A stretch of 64,000 nt of DNA from an uncultured Prevotellaceae bacterium (GTDB lineage Bacteria > Bacteroidota > Bacteroidia > Bacteroidales > Muribaculaceae). The stretch is taken from contig ONKF01000012.1 in assembly GCA_900318335.1 (NCBI GenBank), positions 62,001 to 126,000 of the forward strand. The letters are read 5' to 3'. Every line of letters begins with the position of its first letter. Position 1 is the stretch's first letter. This document shows positions 57,489 to 63,455 of the stretch, piece by piece. Both the position numbers and the translations under genes were made by a program. The notes beneath the pieces are model-generated. The model saw only the letters and a program-made list of their open reading frames with translations. It ran no database searches and was not told the DNA's origin.

Positions 57489-57896
57489 TCAGAAGGGAGT
57501 GGCGCCGCCGTTGTTCTGGTTACCGGCAGGCTGTTGGGGCTGCTGAGGCTGGGGTGCGGTAGCAGGACGGGCAAGCAACTCAAACGTGTCAACATAGATC
57601 TCGGTAGTGTAGCGCTTCACCTGGTTGCGGTCTTCCCACGCGCGGGTGCGCAGCCTTCCCTCGAGGTAGATCTGCGTCCCCTTGCGGATGTAACGCTCGG
57701 CCACCTCGGCGTTCTTTCCCCACATCACGATATTGTGCCACTCAGTACGCTCGGGGACCTGAACACCATTGGCATTGGTATAGGCCCTGTCGGTAGTGGC
57801 AAGCGTAAACGATGCTACGGGCTGATTCTGTGCGACGTAACGCACATCCGGGTCTTTGCCCACACGGCCCAACAGAATGACTTTATTTACTGACAT
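57489..57896 (-). CDS. ssb: Single-stranded DNA-binding protein
   Basis: The 135-residue protein has an OB fold with SVNKVILLGRVGKDPDVR, FTLATTDRAY and EWHNIVMWGKNAEVAERYI, and coats single-stranded DNA during replication and repair. The C-terminal tail is Gln/Pro-rich and ends NNGGATPF. The final Pro-Phe, which binds partner proteins, is kept, but the usual acidic residues before it are missing. It is shorter than many Ssb proteins (about 150-178). It could be the housekeeping copy or a second one; the window does not tell. Confidence 0.92.
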   Translation of the reverse strand: MSVNKVILLGRVGKDPDVRYVAQNQPVASFTLATTDRAYTNANGVQVPERTEWHNIVMWGKNAEVAERYIRKGTQIYLEGRLRTRAWEDRNQVKRYTTEIYVDTFELLARPATAPQPQQPQQPAGNQNNGGATPF

Positions 57897-57950: not shown

Positions 57951-58919
57951 TTAACAGCCAGTTGCCTTGAGGCTCAGCCCCACCCGCTCGTGCAAGCCGA
58001 ACAACAGGTTCATCAAGTGGACCGCGTTGCCCGCACTGCCCTTGAGCAGCACATCCATCACGGCATGAACGGTAAGCAATCTGCGCGTCTCGTCTTTCTC
58101 GAGATGGATCAGGCACTTGTTGGTGTTTTCCACATCGGCTGTGACTATGGGCCTGTCTACCAGGAACACAAAATTGTGGTCATGATAATACTGCTCATAG
58201 AGCTGGCGCACCATCTCCTCGTCCACGCCACACGAGAACCGCGCGGCAACCGCAAGCGTGCGGCGCTCACCCAGGGGGGTGATGCTCATGTCAACCGGTT
58301 GGTTAAAACTTGACTGGCACAGCTTCAGCGCCATGGCCACTTCCTGCCGTTGCTCAGCCACCCACTGCTCGGCATCCAAGCCATCGATGGTAACGGGATG
58401 TCCCGCATCGTTGCAGGGGAAGCCCAGTGTGCCCATCGCCACGCGCAGGTCCAATGGACTATTGAGCAACAGGTTGCGGGCCATGGGCATCAACGCGATG
58501 AGTGATGCCACAGCAGCATTGCCAGGCATCGTCACCATGCGCGTCCCGTGCACGAGCACGCGACGCTGCATCTCGCTCAAGCCATAGGCCCACGGCTTGT
58601 CTTCACCATGGTCAAGGTTGTGGCTACCGCTCAAATCGATGACACGAGTGTCATCGGCCAGTCCCAATGACTCAAGTACACGTGATTGACGCCCACGGGC
58701 ATCACATGTGAAAACGAGGTCCACACCGCTGTGCGGAACGTCGTCGTTTACCACAAGGTCGTTCTCGCCCACGATGCCAGGCACAACATGGTCAAGGCGC
58801 TTGGCCTCGCCACTGTGGTCAATGGCCCACATGAGCTCGACGTCGGGATGGTTGATAAGCAACCTCACCAACTCTGCGGCACGCAGGTTGTCACATCCGG
58901 TTATCCCGACCTTAATCAT
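57951..58919 (-). CDS. ArgC-family protein lacking catalytic residues (likely pseudoenzyme)
   Basis: The 322-residue protein aligns over its full length with N-acetyl-gamma-glutamyl-phosphate reductase: AELVRLLINHP, YGLSE, PLGERRTL, and a well-kept end ENTNKCLIHLEK with LKGSAGNAVHLMNLLFGL. The active site is gone. Asn134 (MPGNAAVAS) stands where the catalytic Cys belongs (PGC), and the Gly-rich NADP loop is replaced by GCDNLRAAE. The HxHxPE motif with the catalytic His is absent, and the SGAG loop reads GTLGFP. The reading frame is intact, so the loss of motifs is not due to frameshifts. It overlaps the 3' end of argR by 8 bp and is expressed with it. A regulatory or binding role is possible; reductase activity is unlikely. 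Confidence 0.85.
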   Translation of the reverse strand: MIKVGITGCDNLRAAELVRLLINHPDVELMWAIDHSGEAKRLDHVVPGIVGENDLVVNDDVPHSGVDLVFTCDARGRQSRVLESLGLADDTRVIDLSGSHNLDHGEDKPWAYGLSEMQRRVLVHGTRMVTMPGNAAVASLIALMPMARNLLLNSPLDLRVAMGTLGFPCNDAGHPVTIDGLDAEQWVAEQRQEVAMALKLCQSSFNQPVDMSITPLGERRTLAVAARFSCGVDEEMVRQLYEQYYHDHNFVFLVDRPIVTADVENTNKCLIHLEKDETRRLLTVHAVMDVLLKGSAGNAVHLMNLLFGLHERVGLSLKATGC

Positions 58920-59481
58920 TCACATTGATGATTGGGCTACCGATAATGTGAGGGGAATTCTTGGGCATGAACTGTTCAAAAGCCACTGTGGCCTGCTCAT
59001 GCGTTACTCCCTCGGCAAGAATGGCAATCACGGTATCGGCACCGGCGATTGTACCCAAGACCTCTGGCGGACGGCTCATGTCGATGTCATAGGCCAAGCC
59101 AGGTGCATAACCATTACGGGTCTTGATGACAGCGATGTTGCCCGAGAAAGTGATTGAAACCAGCCCCACTTGCTTAGCGGCATGAGCATCCGTCTGGCGC
59201 ATGCTCAGCAGTCTGTCCTGCAACTGGTTGCTGTCGGGAATGATGTACATATACGTGTTGCGGTCGGTAGCCACCTTAGAGATCTTCAGCGCCTTCAGGT
59301 CACGTGACAATGTCGCCTGAGTCACATTGATGTTGTGCTCACGCAGCATGTCTGCCAATTCACTCTGACTGCCGATGCAGTTCGTCTTGATCAAATCTGT
59401 GATCAACTGTAAGCGGTCACGTTTTCTTTTCACGAGTACTTTCTTTTTTCTTGGTTTTTTTGTTAATGTTGTCGTATCCAT
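58912..59481 (-). CDS. argR: Arginine repressor ArgR
   Basis: This transcriptional regulator of arginine metabolism works as a hexamer with arginine as co-effector. The N-terminal winged helix contains SQSELADMLREHNINVTQAT and LSRDLKALKI. The C-terminal oligomerisation domain has the family core EVLGTIAGADTVIAILAEG. The frame is open to 59586, but a -7 element at 59515-59522 lies inside the extension, so I start at 59481 (MDTTTLTKKPRKKK, 189 residues). The Lys/Arg-rich N-terminal arm is typical of Bacteroidales ArgR. Downstream is only the degenerate ArgC; the usual arginine biosynthesis genes (argG, argD) are not here. Confidence 0.92.
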   Translation of the reverse strand: MDTTTLTKKPRKKKVLVKRKRDRLQLITDLIKTNCIGSQSELADMLREHNINVTQATLSRDLKALKISKVATDRNTYMYIIPDSNQLQDRLLSMRQTDAHAAKQVGLVSITFSGNIAVIKTRNGYAPGLAYDIDMSRPPEVLGTIAGADTVIAILAEGVTHEQATVAFEQFMPKNSPHIIGSPIINVND

Positions 59482-59514
59482 CTGAACAATATACTTAAAA
59501 GTTGGTTCACCATG

Positions 59515-59522
59515 CAAAGGTA
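59515..59522 (-). promoter_or_regulatory. -7 element (TACCTTTG) of argR
   Basis: TACCTTTG on the minus strand, 33 bp upstream of the ATG at 59481. An imperfect -33 (TTG) lies near 59541. Confidence 0.7.
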
Positions 59523-59678
59523 ATGTGTTTTCTGTAAATCCAACAACATATTTATTGACTTTTTTGCCCCAAAAACAATAATTCACTGAATTTTCATTAC
59601 ATATTCATCAGATTCCATAAGTCCAAATACCATTATTAACATGTATAATGTTGCAGCCAGCAGCAATACGGCATAGAA

Positions 59679-59800: not shown

Positions 59801-62446
59801 TTAGTACCCAGAAGAGCGCGCGATGATGTCAACGACAGCATTCATGTCGGCGATGGTAATCTCACCGTCACCATTCACGTCGGCTGCTGAGACAGGATCA
59901 TTCACACCCGTGATGATGTCGATAACGGCATTCACGTCAGCGACATTCACCTCGCCGTCGATGTTCACATCACCGGGCATCGAGTTTTCCACAATCTGCC
60001 CGAAATAGGGATACCAGCTCTCGTCGGCCCGATAGTCAGCAGCCGTCCCATTGGGCACATGAAGCGTGCGGCCTGAATAGTCGCCATCAAATTTAAAGAC
60101 TTCTCTTTCTACCGACACACTCGAGAGGTCGGTAATGTAACTATACACATCCATCAAGTCATTGCAGCGATCGAACGCCCATATACCAATGTGGGTGACT
60201 GATTTGGGAATCGTTATACTCTTCAGACTATAACACTCGAAAAAGGCCATTGTGCCGATGGTCGTGACGGAATTAGGGAAGTTCACATTCGTCAAGTTGC
60301 TGCAGTCCTCAAACGCATAGTTGCTGATTGTGGTGACGGAATTGGGGATATACACGTTAACCAAACCGGTGCAGCGAGAGAACGCCCCAAAACCGATTTC
60401 AGTGACAGCTTTGGGGATGGTCACACTCGTCAGGCCAGTGCAATCAGAGAACACTTCTTTACCGATGATGGTAAGGGCGTCTGAAATGGTCAGGTTCGCC
60501 AGACCGCTGCAGCCATAGAATGCATTGTCACCGATGGTGGTGACTGAATTGGGGATAGTGATGGTGGTCAAGCCGTTGCAGAAAAAGAACGCTCTGTAGG
60601 CGATTTCAGTGACTGATTCGGGTATGGTTATACTCGACAGGCCTGTGCAGCCCGAGAAAGCATTGCTGCCGATTCTTGTGACCGAACTGGGGATGACCGT
60701 GTTTTTACAACCTGCAATCAATGTATTGCTTGACGTCTCAATAATGGCATTACAGTTGTCGCGGGAATCGTATGCTATGTTTCCGCTTTCCACGTCGAAG
60801 CCCTCAAGGCTTTCACAACCCTCAAATGCACCTCTGCCAATGCTGGTGACATGACTGGGGATGACCATGCTTGACAAACCCGTGCAGCCATCAAACGCAT
60901 ATATGCCGATGGAAATGACGGAGCTGGGAAGGGTCATGTCAGTCAAGCTACCGCACCCATTAAACGCCAAGTCGCCGATGGAGCTTAGCGTGCCGGGAAG
61001 GGTCACATTTGCCAGACTGCTGCAGCCATAGAACGTATACTCACCGATGGTAGTAAGGGCGTTAGGGAGGGTGATGCCCGACAGGTCACTGCAGCCATAA
61101 AACGCATGGCCGCCGATGGAGGTGACTGAGTTGGGGATGACCACGCTTGTCAAAGCACTGCAGCCATTGAACGCTCCACTACCGATGGTGGTAACCGAAT
61201 TGGGGATATCCACACTCGACAGGCCGGTACAATTCTGAAACGCCCAACTATCGATTGAAGTGACGGAGTTGGGAAAGGTCATGCTTGTCAGACCCGTGCA
61301 ATTCTCAAACGCATAGTTGCCAATGGAGGTAACAGAGTTAGGAATAGTAAGGCTTGTCAAGCCACTACAGTTATCGAACGCGTAATCAGTAATACTTAAC
61401 GTACCGTCTTTTATTGTGATGCTTGTGCCATCGGGCATCGTGCCTTTGTAACAGTAAGCAACAGAGCCGGCATACACAAGTCCGTCAGGCCGGTTGTTGT
61501 ACCACGGAGTTTCCTCAAAGGCCCGAAAACCGATGCTGGTGACGGAATTAGGGATGTTCACGCTACTCAGGTTACGGCAGTACCAAAACGCCTCCTGGCC
61601 AATCGAGGTAACCGAATTGGGGATGTCTACGCTAGTCAAGCTATAACAGTCCCAGAACGCCCCTTCGCCGATGGAGGTGACGGAGTTGGGGATAATCACG
61701 CTCGTCAACCCTCTGCAGTCATAGAATGCGCAGTTAGCAATACTTATCGTTCCGTCGTTTATTACGATGGTCGTACCAGCAGGCATCGTGCCCTTGTAAC
61801 GATAAGCGACCAAGCCCGCATATACAAGCCCGTCGTGCTGGTTGTTGTACCAAGGGGTTTTCTCAAATGCCCGGTAGCCGATGGAGGTGACGGTATTGGG
61901 GATGCTCACACTTGTCAAGGCACTACACTCATAGAAGGCCGCTCTGCCGATTGAGGTAACGGAGCTGGGGATAGTCACACTCGTCAGGCTGCTGCAACCA
62001 GAGAACACCATCTCGCCGATTGTAGAAACAGCGTTGGGGATGGAGACACTCGTCAGGCTGCTGCAGTTCCAGAAGGCACGTTCTCCGATAGTGGTGACAG
62101 AGTTGGGGATGCTCACACTTGTCAAGCCACTGCAATCCCTGAAAGCCGCTTCGCCGATGGTAGTAACGGAGCTGGGGATGGTCACGCTCGTCAAGTCTTT
62201 GCAGTTCCAGAAGGCCCAATTACCGATGGCGGTGACTGTAAAGGTGATGTTCTTGTGGGTGACTGTGGCGGGGATAGTCACATCTCCATGATATTCAGGA
62301 TCAGTTTGATGTCTTGTGGACACTTCAACGGAATTGATGCCCGTGATGGTGTAGTCCAAGCCGCCATATTTGAAGCTATAGGCGGTAGCGGTGGCTGGTA
62401 ACAGCAGGGCCAGCACCAACAGGGTGGAAATAATCAAGTTTTTCAT
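59801..62446 (-). CDS. BspA-like LRR_5 surface protein with C-terminal dockerin-like repeats
   Basis: The 881-residue protein has a signal peptide (MKNLIISTLLVLALLLPATA) and about 30 LRR_5 repeats of about 23 residues, with cores like AFWDCYSLTSVDIPNSVTSIG, over residues 60-780. Two near-identical blocks (TPWYNNQHDGLVYAG and TPWYNNRPDGLVYAG) interrupt the regular repeats and show internal duplication. The last 60 residues hold two dockerin-type calcium loops (GDVNIDGEVNVADVNAVID and ADVNGDGEITIADMNAVVD). It is exported and probably surface-exposed, with an unknown ligand. Behind its stop the frame continues into a FISUMP fragment, so the present end may be a truncation. Confidence 0.87.
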   Translation of the reverse strand: MKNLIISTLLVLALLLPATATAYSFKYGGLDYTITGINSVEVSTRHQTDPEYHGDVTIPATVTHKNITFTVTAIGNWAFWNCKDLTSVTIPSSVTTIGEAAFRDCSGLTSVSIPNSVTTIGERAFWNCSSLTSVSIPNAVSTIGEMVFSGCSSLTSVTIPSSVTSIGRAAFYECSALTSVSIPNTVTSIGYRAFEKTPWYNNQHDGLVYAGLVAYRYKGTMPAGTTIVINDGTISIANCAFYDCRGLTSVIIPNSVTSIGEGAFWDCYSLTSVDIPNSVTSIGQEAFWYCRNLSSVNIPNSVTSIGFRAFEETPWYNNRPDGLVYAGSVAYCYKGTMPDGTSITIKDGTLSITDYAFDNCSGLTSLTIPNSVTSIGNYAFENCTGLTSMTFPNSVTSIDSWAFQNCTGLSSVDIPNSVTTIGSGAFNGCSALTSVVIPNSVTSIGGHAFYGCSDLSGITLPNALTTIGEYTFYGCSSLANVTLPGTLSSIGDLAFNGCGSLTDMTLPSSVISIGIYAFDGCTGLSSMVIPSHVTSIGRGAFEGCESLEGFDVESGNIAYDSRDNCNAIIETSSNTLIAGCKNTVIPSSVTRIGSNAFSGCTGLSSITIPESVTEIAYRAFFFCNGLTTITIPNSVTTIGDNAFYGCSGLANLTISDALTIIGKEVFSDCTGLTSVTIPKAVTEIGFGAFSRCTGLVNVYIPNSVTTISNYAFEDCSNLTNVNFPNSVTTIGTMAFFECYSLKSITIPKSVTHIGIWAFDRCNDLMDVYSYITDLSSVSVEREVFKFDGDYSGRTLHVPNGTAADYRADESWYPYFGQIVENSMPGDVNIDGEVNVADVNAVIDIITGVNDPVSAADVNGDGEITIADMNAVVDIIARSSGY

Positions 62447-62663: not shown

Positions 62664-63455
62664 TTACGGTACACGCACCGCACGGACACTGTGACCGTAG
62701 TAGCGATAGCAGTATGGACCGTTCAAGAACCGGCTCCATGACTCCCAATTAAATCCCATGTCACAGGCATTGAAGGCATAGGTCGAGACGCCATTGCTGG
62801 TGTAACACGAGCGAGACCATAGGCTGCAGTATGTCCCCTCGTCGATGAGCATGCCATCCTCACGATAACCCGCAGCAGGCAGGAACAACGAGTTTCCGTT
62901 CGGTCCGGTCACACGGAATCCGTGCACGCCATTCTGGGTCGTTCTCGCCCATGAGCACTTATCCATCAGCTCATTCTGCTGATCGGTGGTAGGTGTGCGC
63001 CACGAGGGACCCCAGTTCACATAGGCAGCATCGTCCTCAGGATCAAGCTCGGTCTTGTTATCAACCATTCCTAAGCTGCTTTGAGTATTGTACTTTGTCA
63101 GCGTAAACATGCTGCCGTTGCACCATTGATAGGTGCTCCAGTTATACACTTCCTTAGGAGAGGTCTCACCCCAAGCAAAGTGGTCGCCGTATTCCTCGGG
63201 AGCGTTGGCGCCCACGTTACAAGTAGCCCACAGGGTGCCGCTGGGCAGCCCCAGGTCAACCCACTCGTGATTATCGGGAGGGGTCACCGGTTCATCAGGC
63301 CATGAGCCTTCCAGCAAGTAATTCATCAAAAAGGTCACGTCATGAATGTTCACGATGCCATCCTGGTCCACATCACCACGCTGATATTCAACGCCAGCAG
63401 TGAATGAAGCCAGCATCAGCGAAATAACAGAAATAATTAAAATCGATTTTTTCAT
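62664..63455 (-). CDS. Secreted protein with N-terminal dockerin-like motif and FISUMP domain
   Basis: The 263-residue protein has a signal peptide (MKKSILIISVISLMLASFTAG), one dockerin-type loop (GDVDQDGIVNIHDVTFLMN) at residues about 27-50, and then a FISUMP domain. That domain starts at WVDLGLPSGTLWATCNVGA and has HFAWGETSPKE, WGPSWRTPT and a C-terminal YRYYGHSVRAVRV. FISUMP domains are common in Bacteroidota and Fibrobacter surface proteins; no function is established. The dockerin-like motif is at the N-terminus, whereas the other dockerin proteins in this window carry it at the C-terminus. The protein has several Trp and Cys residues and may be disulfide-bonded. Confidence 0.82.
   Translation of the reverse strand: MKKSILIISVISLMLASFTAGVEYQRGDVDQDGIVNIHDVTFLMNYLLEGSWPDEPVTPPDNHEWVDLGLPSGTLWATCNVGANAPEEYGDHFAWGETSPKEVYNWSTYQWCNGSMFTLTKYNTQSSLGMVDNKTELDPEDDAAYVNWGPSWRTPTTDQQNELMDKCSWARTTQNGVHGFRVTGPNGNSLFLPAAGYREDGMLIDEGTYCSLWSRSCYTSNGVSTYAFNACDMGFNWESWSRFLNGPYCYRYYGHSVRAVRVP

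Follow-up and report, generated by a model that had tools for sequence, protein, structure and literature searches.

A retained ArgC homologue with a replaced active site, probably a pseudoenzyme, overlaps argR in a Muribaculaceae genome

In yeast, Arg5,6 comprises an acetylglutamate kinase and an ArgC-type reductase, and is reported to act in gene regulation too. Pseudoenzymes are well known in general, and some catalytically dead paralogues are kept and regulate a partner, i.e., the trypanosome AdoMetDC prozyme and the deoxyhypusine synthase paralogue (PMC5201418, PMC3663545). Here, we analyze a stretch of 64,000 nucleotides from an uncultured Prevotellaceae bacterium, placed by GTDB in the Muribaculaceae (assembly GCA_900318335.1, contig ONKF01000012.1, positions 62,001 to 126,000; hereafter, the window), and more precisely an ArgC homologue that overlaps argR and in which the catalytic residues of the family are lost. 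Just as in the two systems above, a dead relative of an enzyme is retained; however, these paralogues regulate a partner, whereas an active ArgC went undetected in most genomes that carry a dead copy. A dead ArgC is apparently without prior report in the open-licence literature, in which we found none, judging partly by titles. For arginine in Muribaculaceae, no relevant paper was found by title, and a word search for "arginine" in the main text of one review of the family returned nothing.

The gene is a frame of 322 codons that starts with ATG inside argR and lies on the minus strand, a point on which the earlier note on this DNA was silent. On its domain matches, the product is a member of the semialdehyde dehydrogenase superfamily, PF01118 and PF22698 of Pfam both passing (45.3 vs. 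26 bits and 36.6 vs. 27 bits). The NCBIfam argC model TIGR01850 covers residues 2–317 with 123.4 bits, below its curated cut-off of 233.6, which places the protein outside this equivalog family. The predicted structure matches ArgC structures, the ArgC fold spanning the entire protein. The full-length homologue announced by the earlier note is thus confirmed.

While the protein shares the whole-length fold of the ArgC enzyme, the catalytic parts are replaced. In the alignment with active relatives, the catalytic cysteine motif NPGC(F/Y)AT (NPGCFAT in these relatives) reads MPGNAAV, Asn134 standing for the catalytic Cys; the Gly loop that binds nicotinamide adenine dinucleotide phosphate (NADP) reads GCDNLRAAEL instead of GGAGYTAGEL; the catalytic His motif HQHLxE(I/V) is missing, with EQWVAEQRQEV where active relatives have KPFxHQHLAEI; and GTLGFP occupies the STGAG (or SGAG) loop region. 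The earlier note had read these four changes from the letters alone, and the alignment bears them out. Catalytic Cys, catalytic His, and NADP Gly loop, which define an ArgC enzyme, are each lost; in all likelihood, the protein neither binds NADP productively nor reduces the substrate. The source genome (3.15 Mb, 92.9% complete) was also searched for a second, complete argC, a check that the earlier note had advised: none was found, the sole other match being the aspartate-semialdehyde dehydrogenase gene asd. Likewise, argG was not found with TIGR00032.

Private decay or a sequencing error, which the earlier note had named as what would overturn its reading, was ruled out because the loss is common to close relatives. 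A scan of named genomes retained 80 loci, 24 of which are close relatives with 58–79% amino acid identity to the window protein; their titles are Muribaculaceae, Prevotellaceae, Porphyromonadaceae, or Bacteroidales, and several are of ruminant-gut origin. The frame is open at 315–322 codons in 24/24. In 16 of them the gene overlaps argR by 8 bp and in four by 4 bp, and the other four show a gap of 9–28 bp (starts being set by script). Across the 25 ArgC sequences, the median ratio of non-synonymous to synonymous substitution rates (dN/dS) is 0.22 over the 107 of 300 pairs with a dS below 1.5, C-terminal residues 216–322 give about 0.10–0.12 (medians, all pairs), and 71 of 322 residues are invariant. 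In a neutral simulation, 17, 5, and 2 of 2000 copies were still open at three distances, and the pairwise identity of the simulated copies was 17–32%, vs. 58–79% observed between the window protein and its 24 relatives. By these measures, the window ArgC is under purifying selection and not decaying. Catalytic residues lost from a protein that selection conserves is what defines a pseudoenzyme, and on this evidence the window ArgC is one. A retained pseudoenzyme rather than a decaying gene, as the earlier note had it, is thus upheld by the open frames, by the dN/dS of about 0.22, and by dead copies in 13 genera.

This last count comes from a wider family sample, which overlaps with the close relatives, some being apparently the same assemblies (e.g., L230/G193, L236/G164, L242/G180). 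A search of 198 family genomes with TIGR01850 matched 196 (some matches being maybe asd), 134 of them above the cut-off, and another model, A1, was built from 29 suspected dead copies. Using A1, an ArgC-family protein is found in 192 of the 196 genomes and in all 140 with a completeness of 90% or more and a contamination of 5% or less. In these same 140 genomes, argR is found in 87 (TIGR01529) and argG in 83 (TIGR00032), with two marginal partial matches for the latter (G086, G150). Absence means no match with A1 and TIGR01850 for ArgC, and with TIGR01529 and TIGR00032 for argR and argG, respectively. Cys-less proteins, called dead copies here, make up 88 of 137 distinct homologues and come from 88 genomes in 13 genera; the collection is non-random, having been chosen to hold mainly suspected dead copies and some active ones (the fragments G099 and G137 were dropped), and 88 is a lower bound, since the collection includes neither the second copies of G091, G178, and G108 nor the majority of the single copies from genus g20. 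An additional active-type ArgC is present in 31 of these 88 genomes, and none was found in the other 57; argR was found in 51 and not in 37. argG is seen alongside the active-type ArgC in 31/31 genomes and in only one of the 57 dead-only genomes (G079). The active type was assigned by score and place; the Cys, read in 13 of the 31 genomes, is present in 13/13, and in G078 and G192 the active-type copy is split across contig ends.

As a control, we used 290 genomes from other Bacteroidales families (295 minus five of Muribaculaceae). A1 matches 92 of them, two weakly and partially (G274, G303), leaving 90 genomes with an ArgC and 200 without any match. The argC cut-off is exceeded by 88 of the 90 copies, and 80 of these 88 were read (the eight highest-scoring being left out): the Cys is kept in 80/80, as NPGCFAT in 79 and SPGCFAT in one. 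Only the two copies below the cut-off (G214, G432) lack it, i.e., dead ArgC represents 2 of the 82 copies read. Hence, dead ArgC is common in Muribaculaceae, and an ArgC is present in every good genome sampled from this family, whereas dead ArgC is rare elsewhere. As a separate observation, in G214 (L327:2340-3812, minus strand), argR is followed by the Cys-less ArgC and then by a proC-like gene, an order resembling that of L218 of genus g29.

The Cys position varies in dead copies (N, P, A, S, T, D, G, E, Q, M, or V), and column conservation found no conserved replacement residue across them; this conservation analysis omitted 12 atypical Cys-keeping second copies, 11 from genus g7 and one from g3. 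The possible pocket residues R223, K294, G295, and N305 are retained in dead copies (at least 87% by weight). In the window's genus, G173 has an active-type ArgC, and G095 has a Ser for the Cys and altered STGAG and HQHL motifs with an intact Gly loop, which suggests that losses within this genus occurred in place.

The gene order hints at where the dead copies come from. The active ArgC locus reads argR-GNAT-argG-argC in G163, G129, and G031, and G173 has it with GNAT and argG fused in one frame; the argR linkage of the dead ArgC looks like a remnant of this operon. In 15 genomes with two ArgC (L305–L317, L107, L171), the active copy, whose Cys is always present, lies in a second arg operon, GNAT-argG-argC-argD-argF-argB, with argE and argH in 14 (the last three genes come first in G167, and the contig of G087 stops at argB). 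argR is absent from the active-ArgC stretches read in these genomes; in G038, it is on the same contig as the active operon, about 6 kb past the stretch read. The other copy is dead in 13 of the 15 and keeps its Cys in G087 and G130. Since the active copy sits in an argR-less second operon and the other is mostly dead, this operon looks like a replacement and the dead gene like the native one left in place. Moreover, the second copy is found near gltX in examples from g4, g7, and g8, so it can also relocate. In genus g7 (L139, L142–L146, L148–L151, L153), the second ArgC keeps the Cys with altered Gly and STGAG loops, and it adjoins gltX in two stretches read (L171, L172); it is possibly an intermediate state. 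Parsimony requires at least four active/dead changes on the ArgC tree, which has many long branches. The approximately unbiased (AU) test is nevertheless compatible with a single dead clade (p 0.703; the tree constrained in this way surpassed the unconstrained quick search by 18 log units), so catalysis may have been lost once or several times.

ArgB is degenerate in the same genus. In the window's genome, it lies beside asd on another contig (C50; L001:1933-2712, minus strand) and scores 118.4 bits, below the cut-off of 151.3. Its HGGG loop is replaced by FSGN and its GGMIPKL-type region by DWFVNKL, and the N-terminal Lys of ArgB is Asn in G040, G060, and G135. Of the 16 genomes of the genus, 14 have an ArgB under the cut-off (G156 having a fragment only), G173 exceeds it, and G109 shows only a weak partial match, of the kind seen as a second match in relatives. 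The dN/dS of ArgB is 0.048–0.085 in 10 pairs among five close genomes. The degenerate ArgB and the dead ArgC may form one module in this genus. As with yeast Arg5,6, members of the ArgB and ArgC families are involved that may have a second role, the degenerate ArgB being conserved in the genus; however, the two yeast enzymes retain activity and derive from a single precursor, whereas here both proteins are degenerate and encoded at separate loci. In genus g22, no ArgB above 40 bits was found in 13 of 14 genomes, and yet 13 dead ArgC copies persist.

The best explanation, and in our judgment a probable one, is a retained ArgC pseudoenzyme with a full fold, kept by selection for a non-catalytic role. 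The dead ArgC would most likely be an oligomeric scaffold or a regulatory subunit working via its conserved C-terminal part; its oligomers would form through the C-terminal domain. This role may predate the loss of catalysis, being already present in active ArgC, and would have been exposed once the native arginine pathway was lost or replaced. Indeed, Muribaculaceae retain ArgC in many more genomes than either argR or argG, and other families lose it, which makes an older role probable. The broader proposal is that ArgC of Muribaculaceae has an old and indispensable non-catalytic function, so that on loss or replacement of the pathway the other genes go, ArgC stays, and its active site decays, a degenerate ArgB possibly serving the same module in the window's genus; we put it forward tentatively, as somewhat more apt to be wrong than right. 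Several points weigh against the best explanation. ArgR has a roughly fourfold lower dN/dS (median 0.058, 270 of 300 pairs) than the pseudoenzyme, and dS is near saturation for many pairs. Among the named genomes, many were assembled from metagenomes, and four of the 196 family genomes have no ArgC-family match, none of these four being 90% complete. The newly conserved columns in dead copies are only seven (at 50% or more), and so few give no new binding site that would hint at a function. Finally, the dead copies may all belong to a single ancient lineage, which would weaken the case for a repeated exposure of an old function.

Other explanations can be considered. The earlier note had suggested, as possibilities, a metabolite sensor or a partner of ArgR. 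In the latter reading, the pseudoenzyme, co-expressed from the overlapping genes, would bind ArgR or a metabolite of the arginine pathway as a co-sensor and tune ArgR. Such a coupling would fit the adjacency of argR and the dead copy in all 15 sampled genomes of the window's genus that have one and in 24/24 close relatives, the 4- or 8-bp overlap in 20 of these 24, the conserved promoter-like block that precedes argR, and the argR-dead ArgC pair of G214 (L327), which belongs to another family and has a proC-like gene next in order. However, 76 dead-ArgC genomes are at least 90% complete, and in 32 of them TIGR01529 finds no argR (though this model may overlook a strongly diverged ArgR), which makes ArgR unfit as the general partner; no argR was seen near the dead gene in the stretches read from g4, g8, g16, g20, and g22, and the linkage may be simply inherited from the argR-GNAT-argG-argC order of active ArgC. 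The proposal thus loses weight as a general explanation and is possible within the window's genus; overall, we regard it as unlikely. Regulation of an active ArgC, the dead copy entering mixed tetramers in the manner of a prozyme, has precedents in dead paralogues that activate a partner (PMC5201418, PMC3663545) and would suit the 31 of 88 genomes that also have an active-type ArgC, but it is no explanation for the 57 where none was found, the window's genome among them, and we consider it quite improbable.

A new enzyme, with the same fold and another reaction relying on a different nucleophile or cofactor, would account for the retained fold and possible pocket residues; against this stand the freely variable Cys position with no conserved replacement and the changes in the Gly loop and second catalytic motif, which make it, if anything, slightly less credible still. 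Finally, the gene could be a slowly decaying remnant, or a placeholder that is translated between argR and ssb and whose frame stays open solely to spare ssb from polarity. The pathway is indeed broken, argG having gone undetected in all but two of the 16 genomes of the genus, and ssb follows the dead gene in 24/24 close relatives. A placeholder would nevertheless preserve the frame and not the sequence, contrary to the dN/dS and the invariant residues; dead copies persist in other settings, e.g., behind gltX; and at most 17 of 2000 neutral frames stay open. This last possibility is disfavored, and we give it hardly any weight.

The coordinates of the pseudoenzyme gene, of its altered motifs, and of the neighboring elements are collected below.

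Features of the argR-argC-ssb region of the window
Feature	Position	Strand	Basis
ArgC pseudoenzyme gene, 322 amino acids	57951..58919	minus	Pfam and NCBIfam matches, alignment, predicted fold like ArgC structures
Degenerate NADP Gly loop, residues 8-16, GCDNLRAAE (active: GGAGYTAGE)	58872..58898	minus	alignment
Asn134 codon at catalytic Cys position	58518..58520	minus	alignment
GTLGFP, residues 163-168, STGAG loop region	58416..58433	minus	alignment
Strongly conserved C-terminal segment, residues 289-318, DVLLKGSAGNAVHLMNLLFGLHERVGLSLK	57966..58055	minus	alignment, conservation, dN/dS
argR, upstream, 8-bp overlap with the pseudoenzyme gene	58912..59481	minus	profile match; start region conserved in relatives
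Conserved promoter-like block before argR, AAAAAAGTCAATAAATATGTTGT...TACCTTTGC	59514..59565	minus	aligned upstream regions, window and 24 relatives
ssb, 54 bp downstream of the pseudoenzyme gene	57489..57896	minus	order argR-argC-ssb kept across most of the genus sample

The overlap given in the earlier note agrees with an argR end at 58912 and a pseudoenzyme start at 58919. argR probably starts at the ATG at 59481 (MDTTT) and not at the GTG at 59586, where the listed frame begins. We take the block before it to resemble the Bacteroidetes -33/-7 promoter type (TTG / TAnnTTTG). In a scan for sigma-70-type promoters, matches were not above chance. Stretches resembling ARG boxes (TGAAT/ATTCA) were noticed by eye upstream of argR, in some relatives only. 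An altered arginine pocket of ArgR was also considered as the ground for a new sensor and was rejected: the core GTIAGADTV of the window ArgR is identical in G173, a genome with an active ArgC, and so offers no lead. A GTIAGADTV-type pattern is unmatched in 10 of the 40 ArgRs compared. On the other side, ssb turned up in 14 of the 16 stretches that were read for the genus, the exceptions being G122 and G173, and no TAnnTTTG motif was seen by eye in the 54-bp argC-ssb gap of the window. Farther away, the window encodes an 881-amino-acid BspA-type leucine-rich-repeat protein that ends in a type I dockerin domain (59801-62446, minus strand), and a borderline dockerin match is seen in the protein after it (62664-63455).

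For the annotation of these bacteria, at least five Cys-less copies exceed the argC cut-off (G041, G136, G016, G095, G114), so annotation based on score only can overstate arginine prototrophy, and this concerns a common gut family. Moreover, a family with active ArgC, dead ArgC, and both forms together is a natural experiment for a hidden function of a textbook enzyme. The family-wide retention of dead ArgC suggests that this protein has a second job.
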